From contig NZ_JANAVO010000008.1 in assembly GCF_024213555.1 (NCBI RefSeq), positions 124,001 through 188,000 on the forward strand: 64,000 nucleotides of DNA, written 5' to 3'. A model generated the notes under the pieces. The model did no database searches, was not told the DNA's origin, and worked only from the letters and a program-made list of their open reading frames with translations. The DNA comes from Allokutzneria sp. A3M-2-11 16. GTDB lineage: Bacteria > Actinomycetota > Actinomycetes > Mycobacteriales > Pseudonocardiaceae. The number at the start of each line of letters is the position of its first letter. The stretch's first letter is position 1. The translations under genes were made by a program, and so were the position numbers. Shown piece after piece: positions 1-6,468 of the stretch.

Positions 1-202
1 CCACCGCGAGCACCCGGTCCGCGCCACCGTCGACGGTCCCGGCGAGCTTGGCGGCGGCCGCGTCCAGCTCCTCGGCCTTGCGCGCGGTGATGGTCACCGA
101 GGCGCCCCTGGAGAGCAGTTCCTCGGCGATGGCGAACCCGATGCCCCGGCTGCCGCTGGTGATCAGCGCGGTCCGGCCGGCGAAGTCGTTCGGCGTGGTC
201 AT
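1..202 (-). CDS. SDR family oxidoreductase, N-terminal part (runs off the window)
   Basis: Only the first 67 codons are present; the gene continues past base 1. The N-terminus reads as a Rossmann-fold short-chain dehydrogenase/reductase: beta strand TALI, then TSGSRGIG at residues 15-22 (NAD(P)-binding loop, with Ser where most members have Gly at the second position), helix FAIAEELLSRG, then the second strand SVTITAR that ends in the cofactor-selecting region. A basic Arg-Lys pair after that strand hints at NADP(H) preference (inference). The ATG at 202-200 is chosen because a TAGAGT -10 hexamer lies exactly 6 nt upstream, fitting leaderless transcription. The substrate cannot be told from this fragment. 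It is divergent from the ABC-F gene. Confidence 0.85.
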   Translation of the reverse strand, partial: MTTPNDFAGRTALITSGSRGIGFAIAEELLSRGASVTITARKAEELDAAAAKLAGTVDGGADRVLAV

Positions 203-208
203 GCCAGC

Positions 209-230
209 ACTCTAGGGCCGGTTACCGGCC
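209..230 (-). promoter_or_regulatory. Leaderless promoter with adjoining palindrome for the SDR gene
   Basis: On the minus strand TAGAGT (214-209) sits 6 nt before the SDR ATG. Directly upstream is a near-perfect palindrome, GGCCGGTTACCGGCC (216-230, 7-bp arms, 1-nt centre), placed where a repressor would cover the spacer between -10 and -35. The -10 spacing is seen directly; the operator role is inference. Confidence 0.4.
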
Positions 231-283
231 AGTAGCCAGGGCGCGTGGCAAAACCGGTCGAACGCGTCGCGTAAACTGGCAGC

Positions 284-301
284 GTGGTCTTGATGGATTA
301 G
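284..301 (+). CDS. Putative five-codon leader peptide (uORF) upstream of the ABC-F gene
   Basis: The reading frame is GTG GTC TTG ATG GAT TAG (Met-Val-Leu-Met-Asp). A TAAACT -10 hexamer (272-277) ends 6 nt before the GTG, so transcription would start at the GTG and the uORF would be translated leaderlessly. It lies 90 nt upstream of the ABC-F start and is followed by competing hairpins, the usual layout of ribosome-mediated attenuation. The peptide is too short for homology; the call rests on position and context only. Confidence 0.4.
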   Translation: MVLMD

Positions 302-390
302 CGGCGCGCGTGGCCCACCCCCGACTTTCGTGAGGGAGGTGGGCGGATGCCCCCTGTCTTCCGCCACGCGATTCGTCTGGAGTTCTTCCC
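302..390 (+). promoter_or_regulatory. Attenuator-like leader with mutually exclusive hairpins (ABC-F gene)
   Basis: Three stems can form. Stem A: GCCCACC (313-319) with GGTGGGC (338-344), extended by 3 bp across an A bulge. Stem B: CGCGTGGC (307-314) with the complementary segment at 363-370, enclosing A. Stem C: GGCGGA (342-347) with TCCGCC (360-365). C excludes both A and B. A ribosome pausing on the uORF at 284-301 would cover the 5' side of B and could shift the balance. The GGAG at 379-382 is the ribosome binding site of the TTG at 391. There is no clear U-tract, so control could act on transcription or translation. Pairings are seen in the sequence; the switch is inference. Confidence 0.5.
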
Positions 391-2016
391 TTGATCACTG
401 TCACGGACCTGGAGCTGCGCGCGGGCTCCCGCATCCTGCTGTCCGACACCACCCTTCGCGTCCAGCCCGGTGACCGGATCGGCCTCGTCGGCCGCAACGG
501 CGCGGGCAAGACCACCACGCTGCGCGTGCTCGCGGGCGAGGGCGAGCCCTACGCGGGCACCGTCCTGCGCTCCGGCGAGCTGGGCTACCTCCCGCAGGAC
601 CCGCGCGAGGGCGACCTGTCGATGACCGCGAAGGACCGGGTGCTGTCGGCGCGCGGGTTGGACGAGATCCTGCGCGAGATGGAGAAGTCGCAGGCCATCA
701 TGGCCGAACTGGTCGACGAGAAGGCCCGCGACGCCGCCGTGCGCAAGTACGGTCGCCTGGAGGACCGCTTCGCCGCGCTGGGCGGGTACGCCGCCGAGAG
801 CGAGGCGGCCCGCATCTGCGCCAACCTCGGCCTGGCCGACCGCGTGCTCGCGCAGGAGACCGGCACGCTCTCCGGTGGTCAGCGCCGCCGCGTCGAACTG
901 GCCCGCATCCTGTTCGCCGCGACCGAGGCGGGCTCGGGCAAGTCCGACACGATCCTGCTGCTGGACGAGCCGACCAACCACCTCGACGCCGACTCGATCA
1001 CCTGGCTGCGCGGGTTCCTCAAGGGCCACAGCGGCGGCCTGATCGTGATCAGCCACGACGTCGACCTGCTGGCCGACGTCGTCAACAAGGTGTGGTTCCT
1101 CGACGCCGTGCGCGCCGAGGTCGACATCTACAACATGGGGTGGAAGCGCTACCAGGAGGCGCGCGCCGCCGACGAGAAGCGCCGCAAGCGCGAGCGCGCC
1201 AACGCCGAGAAGAAGGCGGGCGTGCTCAAGGCGCAGGCCGACAAGATGCGCGCCAAGGCCACCAAGGCCGTCGCCGCGCAGAACATGGCCCGCCGCGCGG
1301 ACAAGCTGCTCGCCGGGCTGGACGAGGTGCGCGTCTCGGACAAGGTCGCCAAGATCCGCTTCCCGCAGCCCGCCCCGTGCGGCAAGACGCCGCTGATGGC
1401 CGAGGGCCTGTCCAAGTCCTACGGCTCGCTGGAGATCTTCGCCGGGGTGGACCTGGCGATCGACCGCGGCTCCCGCGTGGTGGTGCTCGGCCTCAACGGC
1501 GCGGGCAAGACCACGCTGCTGCGGCTGCTCGGCGGCTCGGAGACCTTCGACGCCGGGGAGGTCGTGCCCGGTCACGGCCTGCGCCTGGGCTACTACGCGC
1601 AGGAGCACGAGACCCTGGACCACGACGCGTCGGTCTGGGAGAACATCCGGCACGCCGCCCCGGACACCGACGCCCAGCAGCTGCGCTCGCTGCTCGGCGC
1701 GTTCCTGTTCACCGGCGAGCAGCTGGACCAGCCCGCGGGCACGCTCTCCGGCGGTGAGAAGACCCGGCTGGCGCTGGCCGGCCTGGTCTCCAGCGCGGCG
1801 AACGTGCTGCTGCTGGACGAGCCGACGAACAACCTCGACCCGGCCAGCCGGGAGCAGGTGCTCGACGCGCTGCGCAGCTACCAGGGCGCGGTCGTGCTGG
1901 TCACGCACGATCCGGGCGCGGTGGAGGCGCTGGAGCCCGAGCGCGTCATCCTTTTGCCCGATGGCACCGAGGACCACTGGTCGGCCGATTACCTAGAGCT
2001 GGTGCAGCTGGCCTGA
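391..2016 (+). CDS. ABC-F family ATPase (ribosome-associated, antibiotic-resistance/translation-factor type)
   Basis: This 541-residue protein has two ATP-binding cassettes and no membrane segment. Cassette 1: Walker A GRNGAGKTT near residue 34, signature LSGGQ near 160, Walker B LLLLDEPTNHLD near 190. A charged Lys/Arg/Ala-rich linker (about 230-310) corresponds to the interdomain arm that reaches the ribosome in the family. Cassette 2: GLNGAGKTT near 367, LSGGE near 452, LLLLDEPTNNLD near 472. ABC-F proteins act on the ribosomal E site, either protecting against PTC/exit-tunnel antibiotics or aiding translation; which applies here is unknown. The TTG start is set by GGAG 8 nt upstream. The structured leader suggests induction by ribosome stalling. 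Confidence 0.95.
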   Translation: MITVTDLELRAGSRILLSDTTLRVQPGDRIGLVGRNGAGKTTTLRVLAGEGEPYAGTVLRSGELGYLPQDPREGDLSMTAKDRVLSARGLDEILREMEKSQAIMAELVDEKARDAAVRKYGRLEDRFAALGGYAAESEAARICANLGLADRVLAQETGTLSGGQRRRVELARILFAATEAGSGKSDTILLLDEPTNHLDADSITWLRGFLKGHSGGLIVISHDVDLLADVVNKVWFLDAVRAEVDIYNMGWKRYQEARAADEKRRKRERANAEKKAGVLKAQADKMRAKATKAVAAQNMARRADKLLAGLDEVRVSDKVAKIRFPQPAPCGKTPLMAEGLSKSYGSLEIFAGVDLAIDRGSRVVVLGLNGAGKTTLLRLLGGSETFDAGEVVPGHGLRLGYYAQEHETLDHDASVWENIRHAAPDTDAQQLRSLLGAFLFTGEQLDQPAGTLSGGEKTRLALAGLVSSAANVLLLDEPTNNLDPASREQVLDALRSYQGAVVLVTHDPGAVEALEPERVILLPDGTEDHWSADYLELVQLA

Positions 2017-2208
2017 TCAGCCAGGCCGGCCACCACTGCCGAGGCCAGGCACCGCCTTTAGCGCGTCCGGATGATCCACAGGGCGTGACTCGCCGATCAC
2101 GTGGCGATGATTTTTCATGATCGCCTGGCGTTTGCGGCTTCCGTGTTCGATCATTGCGGCGACGGGGGCCATGATCGGCCCCACTGGTCAATCGGAAGGC
2201 GGGACAAG

Positions 2209-2418
2209 GTGGCTGACCTGAAGAAGGGCGCCCGGATCACGGGGACGGCCCGGGACAAGCTTGCCGCTGACCTCAAGAAGAAGTACGAGAAGGGGGCGAG
2301 CATTCGCTCCCTCGCTGAATCTACCGGCCGCTCGTACGGCTTCGTGCACCGGGTCCTCAGTGAATCGGGGGTGACTCTCCGCGGCCGTGGCGGCGCCACG
2401 CGGAGCAAGAAGAAGTAG
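2209..2418 (+). CDS. Small helix-turn-helix DNA-binding protein
   Basis: This is a 69-residue basic protein starting with VADLKKG, with a helix-turn-helix at about residues 27-53 (the segment containing GASIRSLAESTGRSYGFVHR) and a Gly/Arg/Lys-rich tail ending in SKKK. The same short HTH protein is widespread in actinobacteria and I recall it near crotonase genes; its function is not established. GTG at 2209 is preferred over the upstream ATG because the upstream extension looks non-coding and GGAAGG lies about 11 nt before. The crotonase start follows 49 nt after the stop, so co-transcription is likely. Confidence 0.8.
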   Translation: MADLKKGARITGTARDKLAADLKKKYEKGASIRSLAESTGRSYGFVHRVLSESGVTLRGRGGATRSKKK

Positions 2419-2467
2419 ACCCGGCGAGGCAGCGCAACCTTTCTCACTGTTACGGACAGGAGCCCGA

Positions 2468-3271
2468 GTGTCGATCGTCGACGCTGGCCTGCTCGACGCC
2501 GGGGGCGTCCAGCTCGCGCTGGACGGCCCCCTGGCAACCATCACCCTGCACCGTCCGGAGGTGCTCAACGCGCAGACCCCCGCGATGTGGGCGGCGCTGC
2601 GCGGGATCGGGGAGGCGCTCTCCCCCGAGGTGCGGGTGGTCGTGGTGCGCGGGTCCGGCCGGGCTTTCTCGGCCGGACTCGACCGCGGTCTGTTCACGGC
2701 CGGTGATGGCGAGGGCGGCCCGGGGCTCATGTCGATCGCGACGATGCCCACCGAGCGCGCGGACGCGGTCATCGCCGAGTTCCAGCGCGCGTTCAGCTGG
2801 CTCCGCGATCCGGCGCGGGTGACCGTCGCCGGGGTGCAGGGCCACGCGATCGGGGCGGGCTTCCAGCTCGCCCTCGCCTGCGACCTGCGGGTCGCGGCGA
2901 CCGACGCCAAGTTCGCCATGGCCGAGACCGGGCTCGGCCTGGTCCCCGACCTCGGCGGCACGCTGCCGCTGGTCCGCTGCGTCGGCTACGCGCGGGCGGT
3001 GGAGATCTGCCTGACCGGCCGTCGCGTCGGCGCGGAGGAGGCCGAGCGGATCGGCCTGGTCAACTCCGTCACACCGGTCGAGGAGCTCGACGACGCGGTG
3101 GACAACCTGGTCCGCGCGCTGCTCGTCCCGCAGCCCGGCGCCACGCGGGAAACGTTGGCGCTGCTGCACTCCGCGGCCGACAACCCCGTTCCCGAACTCC
3201 AGCTCTCCGCCGAGCGCGCCGCGCAGATCCGCCGCCTGGCCGACCTTCGCGCCCTCCTCAACCCCTCCTGA
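2468..3271 (+). CDS. Enoyl-CoA hydratase/isomerase (crotonase) family protein
   Basis: The protein has 267 residues, typical for the family. The oxyanion-hole segments are visible: SGRAFSAGLDRG near residue 71 and GHAIGAGFQLALACDL near 125. In mitochondrial enoyl-CoA hydratase the two catalytic glutamates follow these; here the first aligns with Gln (GFQLA) while the second is kept (MAETGLGLVPDLGG). That pattern is common among isomerases and other crotonases, so strict hydratase activity is doubtful. GTG at 2468 is chosen because AGGAG lies 5 nt upstream. A role in acyl-CoA degradation is family knowledge; the substrate is unknown. Confidence 0.88.
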   Translation: MSIVDAGLLDAGGVQLALDGPLATITLHRPEVLNAQTPAMWAALRGIGEALSPEVRVVVVRGSGRAFSAGLDRGLFTAGDGEGGPGLMSIATMPTERADAVIAEFQRAFSWLRDPARVTVAGVQGHAIGAGFQLALACDLRVAATDAKFAMAETGLGLVPDLGGTLPLVRCVGYARAVEICLTGRRVGAEEAERIGLVNSVTPVEELDDAVDNLVRALLVPQPGATRETLALLHSAADNPVPELQLSAERAAQIRRLADLRALLNPS

Positions 3272-3292
3272 CCCGAACCCCACCCGACCTGC

Positions 3293-3528
3293 GGGGTTCC
3301 CCGGTCTTCAAGTACCGCGAACCCCCCTCCCCGCGGTCTCAAACCGCCCCCACCCCCCCGCCTGTATGCCCTGAATGAGTCATTGAGGGCCTTGAACTCC
3401 CCCAATGACTCATTCAGGGCCTTCCAACGCACCAAATGCGGCATTGGCGGTGGGTGTGGGGTGGGGGTTGGGGGCGGTTTGAGACCGTTCGGGGTGGGGT
3501 CGGGGGTACTTGAAGACCGGCTTACCCC
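3293..3528. repeat. GTCTTCAAGTAC-type long inverted-repeat element, copy 1
   Basis: The outer arms CCGGTCTTCAAGTACC (3301-3316) and its exact complement (3505-3520) are flanked by GGGGT/ACCCC. A second nested perfect pair, GGTCTCAAACCGCCCC (3335-3350) with 3471-3486, lies inside. The element starts 22 nt after the crotonase stop. Its centre holds a member of the 30-bp palindromic array family (3369-3447). It fills the 341-bp gap between the crotonase and the ABC exporter; nothing else is seen there. Confidence 0.85.
3369..3447. repeat. Modular 30-bp palindromic array (a), two units plus 18-bp terminal unit
   Basis: Unit 1 (3369-3398) and unit 2 (3399-3429) carry the 18-bp inverted pair GCCCTGAATGAGTCATTG (3368-3385) and its exact complement (3403-3420). 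The array closes with CACCAAATGCGGCATTGG (3430-3447). The same architecture recurs at 34428, 44624 and 44784. This copy is nested inside the longer inverted-repeat element. Confidence 0.8.
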
Positions 3529-3612
3529 GGGCGGGACGTGGAAGTCTCTCGGGCGGGAAGATATCGGGACCTCCTGCTGTTGTGCTCGACGCAACCTGGG
3601 GAGAGGACCGCC

Positions 3613-5793
3613 GTGGACGGAACGTGGATGCTGATGCGCAGCGCGATGGAGAGCGCTGACGTACCGAACAAGATTCGCAAGGGCACGCTGAAACGCGTCC
3701 TCTCCTTCGCCCGGCCGCACCGGCGCACGCTGATCGCGTTCCTGGCGATCACCGTGGTCACCGCGGTGCTGGCGGTCGCGACGCCGGTGCTCGCGGGCCG
3801 GGTGGTCAACGAGATCAGCGGCGGCGGGGACTCCGGCGTCGTGGTCGGCATCGCGTTGCTGATCGCCGGGCTCGCCGTGGTGGAGGCCGGGGTCGGGCTG
3901 TTCGAGCGCTGGTTGTCCGCGCGCATCGGCGAGGGGCTGATCTACGACCTGCGCCGCGCCGTCGTCGGCCACGTGCAGCAGATGCCGGTCGCCTTCTTCT
4001 CCCGCACGCGCACGGGCGCGCTGGTCAGCCGCCTCAACAACGACGTGATCGGCGCGCAGCGGGCGTTCACCTCGACCCTGTCCGGTGTGGTCGCCAACGT
4101 CATCCAGCTCGCGCTGGCGCTTGCGGTGATGCTGACGTTGTCCTGGCAGGTCACGGTGATCGCGCTGGCGCTGCTGCCGGTGTTCGTGCTGCCCGCGCGG
4201 CGGATGGGCCGCAGGATGGCCGCGCTGCAACGGGAGGCGGCCGGGCACAACGCGACCATGACCACCCAGATGACCGAGCGGTTCTCCGCGCCGGGCGCGA
4301 CCCTCGTCAAGCTCTTCGGCCGCCCCAAGGACGAGGCCGACGAGTTCGGCGCGCGGGCCGCGCGGGTGCGCGACATCGGCATCCGCACCGCCATGACCAC
4401 GCGCGTGTTCATCACCGCGCTGACCCTGGTGTCGAGCTTGGCGCTGGCGCTGGTGTACGGCCTCGGCGGGTGGCTCGCCCTGGAGGGACAGCTCGCCGCG
4501 GGCACGGTCGTCTCGCTCGCGCTGCTGCTGACCCGGCTCTACACGCCGCTGACCGCGCTGGCCAACGCGCGCGTGGACGTGATGAGCGCGCTGGTCTCCT
4601 TCGAGCGCGTGTTCGAGGTGCTCGACCTCCCACCCGCGATCACCGAGAAGCCCGACGCCGCAACGGTTCCGGACGGCCCGGTGGCGGTGGAGTTCGACGA
4701 CGTGCGCTTCGCCTACCCTGCGGCGAACAAGGTTTCCCTTGCCTCCCTTGAGGAAGTCAAGACCCTGGACACCCGTGGCGGCGAGGAGGTGTTGCACGGC
4801 TTGAGCTTCCGCGCCGAGCCCGGTCAGCTCGTCGCGCTCGTCGGCTCCTCGGGTGCGGGCAAGTCGACCATCGCCAGCCTGGTGCCGCGGCTCTACGACG
4901 TGGACTCCGGAGCCGTCCGGCTGTCCGATGTGGACGTTCGGGAGCTGTCGTTCGACTCGATCAGGCAGACGGTGGGCGTGGTGACCCAGGACGGGCACCT
5001 CTTCCACGACACGATCGGCGCGAACCTGCTCTACGCGCGCCCCGCCGCCACCGAGGAGGAGATCTGGGACGCGCTGCGCGGAGCCAGGCTCGCCGACCTG
5101 GTGCGCTCACTCCCGGACGGCTTGGAAACCGTTGTGGGAGAACGGGGTTACCGGCTCTCCGGGGGTGAGCGGCAGCGGCTGACCATCGCCCGCCTGCTGC
5201 TGGCGCGGCAGCGCGTGGTGATCCTGGACGAGGCCACCGCGCACCTGGACTCCGAGTCGGAGGCGGCGGTGCAGGAAGCCCTCGCCGAGGCGTTGGCGGG
5301 GCGGACCGCTCTGGTGATCGCGCACCGGCTGTCCACGATCCGCGCCGCCGACCAGATCCTGGTCGTCGAGGCGGGCGAGATCGTCGAGCGCGGCACTCAC
5401 GACGAACTCCTTGCCGCAGAAGGACGTTACGCCGACCTGTACCGGACGCAGTTCCGCCAAGCCGAGCCCGCCGCGCCGGTGGCGCTGCCGCACGCGCTCG
5501 ACGACTTCGGCGCGCTGTGGCGGCAGAGCCTGGTGCAGGTGCAGCGGCTGTTCCCGACGCGGCTGCGGATGGTGCTCGACGGCGACAAGGGAACCGAGGC
5601 GCGACTGCGCGAGCTGGTCCGTGCGGAAGAGGTGTGCTGCCCGTTCTTCGCCTTCACGGTGACGCGCGAGGGCGACCGGCTCGTGCTGGACACCGACGTG
5701 CCGGAGACCGCGGCCGTCGTCCTCGACGAGATGGCGACCGCGGCGCTGCGCTCACGAGAGCCGGGGGACCCGCTTGCCGTAGTGGGCGAGTAG
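3613..5793 (+). CDS. ABC exporter (fused TMD-NBD) with extra C-terminal CC-motif domain
   Basis: This 726-residue protein starts at GTG 3613 behind GGGGAGAGG. Residues about 25-330 form a six-helix type IV exporter membrane domain. The NBD has Walker A GSSGAGKST, Q-loop VTQDG, signature LSGGERQR, Walker B VVILDEATAHLD and H-loop AHRLS. An insert of about 20 residues follows the A-loop FAYP, as in many actinobacterial homologues. Unusually, about 110 residues follow the NBD, ending in a compact alpha/beta module with AEEVCCPFFAFTVTREG. I recall a similar CC-F module in small free-standing proteins and in some MerR-type regulators. A metal- or thiol-sensing role is inference. The 3' end overlaps the convergent SIS gene by 42 nt. 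Confidence 0.88.
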   Translation: MDGTWMLMRSAMESADVPNKIRKGTLKRVLSFARPHRRTLIAFLAITVVTAVLAVATPVLAGRVVNEISGGGDSGVVVGIALLIAGLAVVEAGVGLFERWLSARIGEGLIYDLRRAVVGHVQQMPVAFFSRTRTGALVSRLNNDVIGAQRAFTSTLSGVVANVIQLALALAVMLTLSWQVTVIALALLPVFVLPARRMGRRMAALQREAAGHNATMTTQMTERFSAPGATLVKLFGRPKDEADEFGARAARVRDIGIRTAMTTRVFITALTLVSSLALALVYGLGGWLALEGQLAAGTVVSLALLLTRLYTPLTALANARVDVMSALVSFERVFEVLDLPPAITEKPDAATVPDGPVAVEFDDVRFAYPAANKVSLASLEEVKTLDTRGGEEVLHGLSFRAEPGQLVALVGSSGAGKSTIASLVPRLYDVDSGAVRLSDVDVRELSFDSIRQTVGVVTQDGHLFHDTIGANLLYARPAATEEEIWDALRGARLADLVRSLPDGLETVVGERGYRLSGGERQRLTIARLLLARQRVVILDEATAHLDSESEAAVQEALAEALAGRTALVIAHRLSTIRAADQILVVEAGEIVERGTHDELLAAEGRYADLYRTQFRQAEPAAPVALPHALDDFGALWRQSLVQVQRLFPTRLRMVLDGDKGTEARLRELVRAEEVCCPFFAFTVTREGDRLVLDTDVPETAAVVLDEMATAALRSREPGDPLAVVGE

Positions 5794-6468
5794 GTCCTTG
5801 TTCGCCTGGTCACCGCCCTCGGTGTTGGCGCTGCGCCACAGCGGCAGGTCCAGGCCGTCGCGCTCGGCCCGCGCGTGCAGCGAGACCAGCAGCAGGTTCC
5901 ACACGAACATGGTGGCCAGCGAGGACAGCGGCGCGGTGACCGGCGCGGCGGCCGGGTGCGCGGCGTCGCCGGGCGGCACCAGGGTGTCCAGCACGATGCT
6001 CGACTCGGCGGCCAGGGTGGTGCCCGACCGCTTCGGCGCCGCGGAGCTGGCGGGCCCGGAGGTCACCCCGATCACCGGCAGCCCGGCGGCGCGCCCGGCG
6101 CTGGCCAGCTCCACCGGGTAGGGGTTCACGCCCGAGGTGGAGAAGACGATCAGCACGTCGTTCGGCCCGAGCGGGTCGGCCGTCAGCACCTCGGCGGCCA
6201 GGCCGGAGCGCCGCTCGGCGTCGGTGCTGGACTTCGCGCCGTGCATCGGCAGCAGGTCGGGGTGGTAGAGCGGGCGCACGCAGGACAGCCCGCCCGCGCG
6301 GTAGAAGGTCTCGGCGACCGCGGCCAGCGAGTGGCCCGCGCCCGCGGTGACGATCAGCCCGTCCTTGGTGATCGCCGTGGTCAGCGCGTCGACGGCGCGC
6401 TCGACCGCCTCGGCGTTGTGCCGTTCCAGCCTGTCGAGGTGCTCGTGCACCGTGCCCGCGTATCCCAT
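5752..6468 (-). CDS. SIS-domain sugar-phosphate isomerase/aminosugar-related protein
   Basis: The protein has 238 residues and a single SIS (sugar isomerase) fold. The phosphosugar-binding loops are visible: VTAGAGHSLAAVAETFYRAGG near residue 41 and VFSTSGVNPYPVELA near 109, with a further loop GVTSGPASS. SIS proteins bind phosphorylated ketoses/aldoses such as amino-sugar phosphates in the cytoplasm. A DasR-like operator immediately upstream suggests control by the GlcNAc regulator; NagS of Streptomyces is a SIS protein under DasR (recalled). The tail contains LLAHYGKRV. The exact substrate is unknown. It is divergent from the C69-like gene. Confidence 0.85.
   Translation of the reverse strand: MGYAGTVHEHLDRLERHNAEAVERAVDALTTAITKDGLIVTAGAGHSLAAVAETFYRAGGLSCVRPLYHPDLLPMHGAKSSTDAERRSGLAAEVLTADPLGPNDVLIVFSTSGVNPYPVELASAGRAAGLPVIGVTSGPASSAAPKRSGTTLAAESSIVLDTLVPPGDAAHPAAAPVTAPLSSLATMFVWNLLLVSLHARAERDGLDLPLWRSANTEGGDQANKDLLAHYGKRVPRLS

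Follow-up and report, generated by a model that had tools for sequence, protein, structure and literature searches.

Attenuation by upstream open reading frames (uORFs) is known for ABC-F genes of Firmicutes and for ARE5 genes of Streptomyces, and leaderless short-ORF attenuators are known, separately, for mycobacterial cysteine genes, going by the available text of the papers cited here. The Firmicute and clostridial leaders of vmlR, vgaL, and cplR combine a very short uORF (MRI, MIN), an induced ABC-F gene and alternative folds that touch the Shine-Dalgarno (SD) sequence (PMC10201436). The Streptomyces ARE5 attenuators of tiaA and are5sc (PMC12421871) and of lmrC (PMC8546547) likewise place a short uORF in the 5' untranslated region (UTR) of an actinomycete ABC-F gene, with ribosome-mediated induction by 50S inhibitors. 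Our literature search, which left subscription papers and preprints mostly outside, found no paper joining ABC-F attenuation with a leaderless attenuator. Here we describe the 107-nucleotide (nt) leader of an ABC-F gene from Allokutzneria sp. A3M-2-11 16 (Pseudonocardiaceae), the first forward-strand gene in a 64,000-nt stretch of contig NZ_JANAVO010000008.1 (positions 124,001 to 188,000; hereafter the window). This leader is real, conserved and unusual in design and reach, and it looks like a built-in antibiotic-responsive switch of unusual layout. The sequences hold a conserved promoter-uORF layout, signs of coding constraint, covariation of two pairings (P1 and P2) and next to no terminators. 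We favor, with somewhat more confidence than doubt, a ribosome-mediated attenuator in which the leaderless uORF would act as sensor: its start, when free, would pair with the strand just before the SD sequence (pre-SD), and a ribosome stalled by a 50S inhibitor would open that strand.

A short frame directly behind the promoter

The locus comprises the following elements.

250 to 260, + strand: AAAACCGGTCG, conserved promoter element upstream of the -10 box, consensus GAAAnCGsTkG (position-wise composition of 114 aligned promoters)
272 to 277, + strand: TAAACT, -10 box, consensus TA[C/G/A]ACT (keeps a 6-7 nt distance to the uORF in 111 of 143 orthologues)
284 to 301, + strand: leaderless-type uORF GTG GTC TTG ATG GAT TAG, peptide MVLMD (conserved position; relatives with 21-nt and 24-nt uORFs show a synonymous excess, its own 18-nt set does not)
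379 to 382, + strand: GGAG, SD sequence of the ABC-F gene (almost invariant in alignment A1)
391 to 2016, + strand: ABC-F gene, OcrA/Rv1473-like, TTG start, 541 residues (model matches and relatives; function of the relatives from papers)

The sequence-only reading had placed TAAACT 6 nt ahead of a five-codon GTG...TAG frame at 284-301, and these positions are confirmed, six bases separating the hexamer from the GTG at 284. Recurrence of the layout was counted with a rule of TAnnnT, a gap of 6-7 nt, ATG or GTG, and 4-25 codons. Upstream regions were taken from the best 80 of 589 loci of a public genome set and from 90 of 120 family genomes, its own included (the 30 left out were mostly less similar ones), and 169 usable upstreams were reduced to 143 non-redundant ones by dropping those at least 85% alike. 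The layout is found in 111 of the 143, compared with 1.8 on average and 4 at most over 50 dinucleotide-shuffled sets. With a gap of 5-8 nt the count rises to 114 (shuffles: mean 4.3, maximum 10), and the -10 box lies 7 nt from the uORF in 58 and 6 nt in 53 of these 114 loci. A class-wide sample of 69 upstreams (of 81 genomes with a match), covering 29 families, has the layout in 32, spread over 13 families (shuffles: mean 0.56, maximum 5). Among 52 long ORFs of the window, listed mechanically and with GC-rich third positions, a single one has it, and this is the same uORF seen through an internal start of the ABC-F gene. The proposal of a leaderless-type uORF ahead of the ABC-F gene is supported: such a frame, at a conserved position and showing coding signs, stands ahead of 102 of the 115 Pseudonocardiaceae genes examined and was seen in 13 further families of the class sample. 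Among Streptomycetaceae upstreams, 42 of 48 likewise have a uORF that stops short of the gene.

Four more Pseudonocardiaceae upstreams carry a longer uORF that overlaps the ABC-F gene. The 29 upstreams that miss the wider rule belong to Nocardia, Gordonia, Rhodococcus, Mycolicibacter, Geodermatophilaceae- and Frankia-type loci and a few Pseudonocardiaceae, and locus L004 is missed by the layout rule because its frame starts with TTG. Several variant leaders are worth recording. In L093, L102, L110, L121, and L001 the 41 nt ahead of the ABC-F gene hold a 14-codon uORF (MVATACHPSMEPYW and kin), the TGA of which overlaps the gene's GTG. The record of L001 is titled Rhodococcus rhodnii NRRL B-16535; it has its leader in common with L102, whose genome is placed in the window's family, and the record is possibly mislabelled. 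The short leaders of L058, L079, and L223 hold an 8-codon uORF (MAVCHDHR, MAECHTHV) whose UAG abuts the SD sequence GAG (41 nt before the start). Six Nocardia loci (L022, L023, L025, L029, L031, and L032) fall outside the uORF set by the layout rule and have, within some 100 nt of the start, a TAAAAT box followed by a small hairpin of the TTGTGYG...CGCACAA type; judged by eye, this hairpin seems to covary.

From the way it varies among relatives, the uORF looks translated. Conservation of the Met-Val-Leu-Met-Asp frame, which the sequence-only reading had proposed to test, extends to the exact peptide only within the genus (MVLMD in 3 of 3 genomes); the family keeps the start, the length class and a mostly acidic last residue, as in MVVRLE, MDIQLE, MVILIE, and MVVRTD. 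Peptides of the Streptomycetaceae include MAILLAH, MAVLSGH, and MAVLLTD, that of the Micromonosporaceae is MLRCEG, and MTSAAS, MMPVAD, and MRTPD occur elsewhere. Third codon positions are the most variable in all three uORF length sets. Synonymous changes make up 13 of 20 single-base differences in the 21-nt uORFs of Pseudonocardiaceae (0.277 expected) and 7 of 11 in the 24-nt uORFs of Streptomycetaceae (0.278 expected), the pairs being non-independent in both sets.

The end of the frame is constrained as well. With close relatives counted in all the tallies that follow, the final amino acid is E or D in 85 of 102 uORFs from the Pseudonocardiaceae, and 36 of 42 from the Streptomycetaceae end in H or D. 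UAG serves as stop codon in 78 of 102 and 42 of 42 uORFs, respectively, and UGA in 51 of 54 and 48 of 48 main genes that could be read; CAT or GAT is the last codon of 33 of 42 Streptomycetaceae uORFs, and in the main genes of that family CAT makes up 4 of 322 His codons and GAT 69 of 1890 Asp codons. Such an ending could serve autoregulation instead of drug sensing: the uORF would register delayed termination where an acidic or His codon precedes UAG, and the ABC-F protein, by helping ribosomes held there, would shut off its own synthesis. The acidic or His end, the UAG preference and the rare last codons speak for this idea, as does the relief by E. coli EttA of stalls set by acidic residues (PMC12421871). 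The terminal residue nevertheless varies, being G in Micromonosporaceae and S, P, H or C elsewhere, and we consider autoregulation improbable.

No run of Cys codons occurs in the window's uORF (MVLMD). The stalling context of phenicols and oxazolidinones is Ala, Ser or Thr before the last residue; it was not adopted, because some uORFs have it (MVRTD, MAILLAH) and others do not (MVVRLE).

Pairing within the leader

The pairing strands discussed below are these.

284 to 288, + strand: P1, 5' strand GTGGT, at the uORF start (GTGGTC is the commonest start in the family); covaries with the pre-SD and is in the minimum-energy fold of 284-393
363 to 367, + strand: P1, 3' strand GCCAC (GACCAC, GTCCAC, CTCCAC, GATCAC in relatives); from covariation, six-base types and the fold
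313 to 319, + strand: P2, that is stem A, 5' strand GCCCACC; covariation in 21 chosen leaders, and RNAalifold unaided
338 to 344, + strand: P2 (stem A), 3' strand GGTGGGC; covariation and RNAalifold
307 to 314, + strand: tentative stem B, 5' strand CGCGTGGC; unchanged in three congeners
363 to 370, + strand: tentative stem B, 3' strand GCCACGCG, competing with P1 for 363-367; sequence and pairing counts
342 to 347, + strand: tentative stem C, 5' strand GGCGGA; pairing counts
360 to 365, + strand: tentative stem C, 3' strand TCCGCC; sequence and pairing counts

The strongest long-range signal, P1, joins the first bases of the uORF to the stretch before the SD sequence. It was counted on all non-redundant leaders with a detected uORF (82 from Pseudonocardiaceae, 35 from Streptomycetaceae, and 108 across families) and outside alignment A1, because the 5' end of A1 is out of register between 5- and 6-codon uORFs. 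Swapping partners among the 82 Pseudonocardiaceae leaders costs a mean of 1.4 kcal/mol (z -7.1; 0 of 5000 permutations), and the 108 leaders of all families give z -8.2. Control pairings in the Pseudonocardiaceae gave z -1.1 for uORF bases 7-21 with the pre-SD, z -3.1 for uORF bases 1-9 with the region from SD to +25, and z -2.8 for the post-uORF segment with the pre-SD. Six Watson-Crick pairs are formed in 31 of 82 leaders, compared with 16.6 on permutation (maximum 24 in 1000 permutations); for starts other than GTGGTC the figure is 12 of 44 against 2.2 expected. The matched forms are GTGGTC/GACCAC, GTGGAC/GTCCAC, GTGGAG/CTCCAC, GTGATC/GATCAC and, once, with an ATG start, ATGGTC/GACCGT.

The hairpin P2 was studied in alignment A1, 21 of 26 leaders picked for similar layout from 102 Pseudonocardiaceae leaders, and counts from it lean to shared structure because of that choice. 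RNAalifold finds P2 unaided, with 9 pairs, 7 of which show compensated changes. Stem A is paired in 99.3% of cells, with two-sided changes in 5 of 7 pairs and a covariation score of 0.436 against 0.210 in shuffles (reached by 0 of 500) and at most 0.114 when slid; the longer P2 of 10 pairs is paired in 95.7% of cells, with two-sided changes in 8 of 10, and the outer helix P3 in 60.3%, with two-sided changes in 2 of 6. L082, which is one of the two congeners, shows compensation in stem A (GCCTGCC/GGCGGGC). The loop of P2 is CACG or UACG in many relatives (by eye).

The coordinates that the sequence-only reading gave for stems A, B, and C are correct, and of the three it is stem A that covaries strongly. 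For stem B, 46.4% of cells are paired and the covariation score is 0.098, where shuffles average 0.067 and 5 of 500 do as well; for stem C the figures are 61.5%, 0.121 against 0.098, and 23 of 500, and in L082 stem C has a mismatch, GGCAGA opposite an unchanged TCCGCC. The switch of A or B against C that had been proposed was therefore dropped as the main model, B and C being little above controls on the 21 leaders; the pairing of uORF start and pre-SD carries the covariation.

A covariance model built from A1 (R1) detects this locus in its genome at E 2e-13, the locus being in the training set, and the next match has E 2.1. On 48 further loci it gave 9 leader matches with E<1e-6, some of which nearly duplicate training rows or one another (L170, L004/L088), and in four Streptomycetaceae and two Micromonosporaceae loci no match at E<=1. 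An Rfam scan of 1-6000 returned only mir-3117 at 3359-3429 on the other strand, with 24.9 bits against a cut-off of 80.

Pairing takes other forms in other families. In the Streptomycetaceae, uORF bases 1-9 with the region from SD to +25 give z -3.6, and the Leu codons of the uORF are CTC or CTT in 43 of 49 cases compared with 1289 of 3259 in the main genes; these codons yield an anti-SD-like CUCC able to face GGAG, a pairing that covariation cannot reach because the SD sequence hardly varies. In silico, among the leaders viewed one by one, the SD sequence of L050-L054, L061, and L066 is almost fully paired when the leader is free and freer with the uORF blocked, and L060 and L063 respond in the opposite way. 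General sequestration of the SD sequence by the uORF was rejected as an explanation, as it was not found across the 108 leaders; it is kept only for the Streptomycetaceae, and not for every leader there. In the Micromonosporaceae, TCAGCC lies opposite the end of the uORF, GAAGGCTGA, and in L068 the two strands both differ, reading GACTGA and TCAGTC (by eye). The predicted common thread across the families is that uORF bases pair with the ribosome-landing region of the gene.

A chance short frame behind a -10 box, with no function, is the reading to which we give the least credence. It would agree with single-sequence folding of 284-410, which is unexceptional (52 of 200 shuffles at least as good, z -0.71), and folding energy alone says little because that many shuffles fold as well; the conserved layout, the coding signs, and the covariation of P1 and P2 contradict it.

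Possible modes of control

In the model that we infer for the transcription start, uORF translation, direction of control, drug stalling, induction, and a mainly translational mode of control, transcription would start with the G of the GTG at 284 or with a base beside it, and a 70S ribosome would begin the five-codon uORF at the very 5' end of the RNA. When translation runs freely, the ribosome would leave the uORF at once; the uORF start GUGGU would then pair around hairpin P2 with the strand just upstream of the SD sequence, forming P1 and hindering ribosome loading on the ABC-F gene. A 50S inhibitor that slows or stalls the ribosome on the uORF would block P1 and leave the pre-SD single-stranded, and ABC-F protein would be made. 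The drug-sensing step is suggested by analogy with tiaA, are5sc, and lmrC and by the kind of gene.

Translational control is favored because intrinsic terminators are nearly absent. Terminator-like sites were found in 2 of 102 Pseudonocardiaceae and 0 of 39 Streptomycetaceae leaders and none in window positions 1-700, and an intrinsic terminator, with 2 matches in 141 leaders and none in the window, was discarded as a candidate. Transcriptional attenuation could still operate if the translation state of the uORF decided, via Rho or pausing, whether RNA polymerase stops in the leader. Rho sites are rich in C and poor in G, and Rho is kept as a rival because the stretch from -30 to -12 has this composition, with C 0.48 and G 0.14 in Pseudonocardiaceae and C 0.53 and G 0.22 in Streptomycetaceae, compared with a background of C 0.31 and G 0.345 before the 52 ORFs of the window. 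Transcriptional attenuation also governs the Streptomyces ABC-F genes are5sc and lmrC (PMC12421871, PMC8546547). Against it stand the scarcity of terminator-like sites, the shortness of the C-rich stretch, and the focus of P1 and the anti-SD-like Leu codons on the region where ribosomes land; we regard this mode as unlikely.

A leader without any sensing is somewhat less plausible still: the uORF might load ribosomes on the leaderless 5' end and hand them on to the gene, or P1 might protect the RNA end. The frames of the MVATACHPSMEPYW type that overlap the GTG in L093, L110, and L121, and the UAG abutting GAG in L058, L079, and L223, would suit a hand-over. So would 8 of the 69 class-sample genomes (L199, L200, L203, L274, L280, L296, L298, and L300), where a TAnAnT box precedes the ABC-F gene itself by 6-11 nt; there the gene may be leaderless and the attenuator absent. 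In the Pseudonocardiaceae, however, a median of 77 nt separates the uORF stop from the main start, which is long for coupling, and a conserved last residue, a UAG stop and the covariation of P1 and P2 would be unneeded in a constitutive leader.

Several results weigh against the ribosome-mediated attenuator with P1 as its switch. By the layout rule the uORF is lacking in 37 of the 69 class-sample genomes, including every one of the five from family f2, Mycobacterium- or Nocardia-like by upstream sequence, the group in which the protein was studied. The 18-nt uORF set to which the window's frame belongs has no synonymous excess (1 of 5 differences, 0.258 expected). The z values of P1 are inflated because the permutations ignore relatedness, and in the Streptomycetaceae covariation is absent both for P1 (z +1.5, n=35) and for the CUCC-bearing uORF bases 7-21 with the region from SD to +25 (z -1.0). 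The window's own P1 is short (GTGGT/GCCAC) and competes with stem B, and three folds of 284-430, with A and B, with C, or with P1, differ by less than 1 kcal/mol. When the uORF was blocked in silico, the SD sequence did not open over the 108 leaders (mean -0.011; up in 32, down in 36), and opening was confined to the stretch from -25 to -12 (mean +0.07, with 50 leaders up and 14 down); P1 would thus have to block the approach of the ribosome.

It can be speculated, more tentatively, that the attenuator is widespread among actinomycetes and that the start codon of the leaderless uORF doubles as the switch strand, the 5' GUGGUC being either held in a 70S initiation or early-elongation complex or paired with the pre-SD, a device re-tooled by lineage; we see this as possible and rather doubtful. 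If true, the sensor would follow what complete 70S ribosomes are doing at the 5'-terminal base, answering drugs that freeze 70S starts or early elongation and remaining blind to inhibitors of 30S initiation, and the re-tooling would have used uORF start and pre-SD in the Pseudonocardiaceae, anti-SD-like Leu codons in the Streptomycetaceae, and uORF end and pre-SD in the Micromonosporaceae. Should the leader function as in the favored model, many actinomycetes, Streptomyces among them, would switch this gene on via a sensor at the RNA's first base, with no SD site of its own. Leaderless 70S initiation could then be followed under drugs with a natural reporter and tested on compensated sequences from whole families. 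Leaderless uORF sensors could also escape uORF searches that look for an SD site; uORF4u has such a step and may discard SD-less frames.

The gene, its promoter and the described systems

The sequence-only reading assigned the gene to the ABC-F proteins, and the ribosome-protection type is supported by model, structure matches and studied relatives. The best NCBIfam model is NF000355, ribosomal protection-like ABC-F, with 357.6 bits (the cut-off of 380 is not reached), and the best matches among solved structures are YheS, YbiT, PoxtA, and EttA. The gene is present in 120 of 120 sampled family genomes, relatives occur in 81 of 89 genomes of the class sample, and the protein is 76% identical to those of the Mycolicibacter loci L034-L036. 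It is the only strong copy in its own genome, where the next matches have E 3e-61; some family genomes have a second copy, 59-64% identical (G019:C1:1498232-1499827, G016:C1:7952615-7954210, and G062:C1:2855356-2856972). On these grounds the product probably shields ribosomes from antibiotics.

The promoter element was compared with a known activator site. The promoter motif activated by WblC/WhiB7 reads GAAAWY, 3 bp, TKGMNN, 16-19 bp, TANNNT (PMC7157823). The GAAAnC and TkG parts are present here, but the TKGMNN-like hexamer ends 8 bp before TANNNT instead of 16-19, about one helical turn too short, and a WblC/WhiB7 promoter is at most a possibility here. The element stands at the same place in many Pseudonocardiaceae and Streptomycetaceae loci. 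As a spaced pattern, GAAAnCGsTkG has one exact match in the whole 8.8 Mb genome, which is this promoter, and 2 matches when one mismatch is allowed (reversed control: 1). On the opposite strand, a short-chain dehydrogenase frame (Pfam adh_short, 36.9 bits) starts at 202 and continues past the edge of the window, which leaves 67 residues to be read, so that 203-283 lies between two divergent genes.

Among studied proteins, OcrA (Rv1473), named for oxazolidinone and chloramphenicol resistance (PMC9159947), and MAB_2736c are of the same kind by N-terminus and by the similarity of the mycobacterial loci, and OcrA-type proteins blunt oxazolidinones and phenicols in mycobacteria (PMC9159947, PMC12633451). 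The N-terminus here, MITVTDL, is near the MITATDL of MAB_2736c as encoded by a published primer (PMC12633451); through this likeness and the mycobacterial loci, the gene resembles OcrA/Rv1473, an ABC-F that protects against oxazolidinones and phenicols. The mycobacterium-like loci L034-L036 and L179-L182 differ in having no leaderless uORF ahead of the gene, and the available text of PMC9159947 and PMC10502375 does not treat this leader.

The described attenuators each share part of the design. tiaA, are5sc, and lmrC encode ARE5 proteins rather than this gene and work by terminator and antiterminator (PMC12421871, PMC8546547); the uORFs of tiaA and are5sc have ribosome binding sites inside 5' UTRs of 194 and 232 bp (PMC12421871), and the word leaderless is absent from the main texts of both papers. 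The cplR leader ends in a terminator with poly-U, and the available text of PMC10201436 does not use that word either. The whiB7/wblC leader is alike in having an actinobacterial uORF that reacts to ribosome-targeting drugs, but it is long, has a Rho-independent terminator, and precedes a transcription factor gene (PMC10727445). The mycobacterial polycysteine attenuators are alike in having a leaderless uORF in an actinobacterium, which acts there as an attenuator and for which a citing paper speaks of translation attenuation; unlike the leader described here, they sense cysteine and serve cysteine-metabolism operons, with no drug and no ABC-F gene involved (Canestrari 2020).

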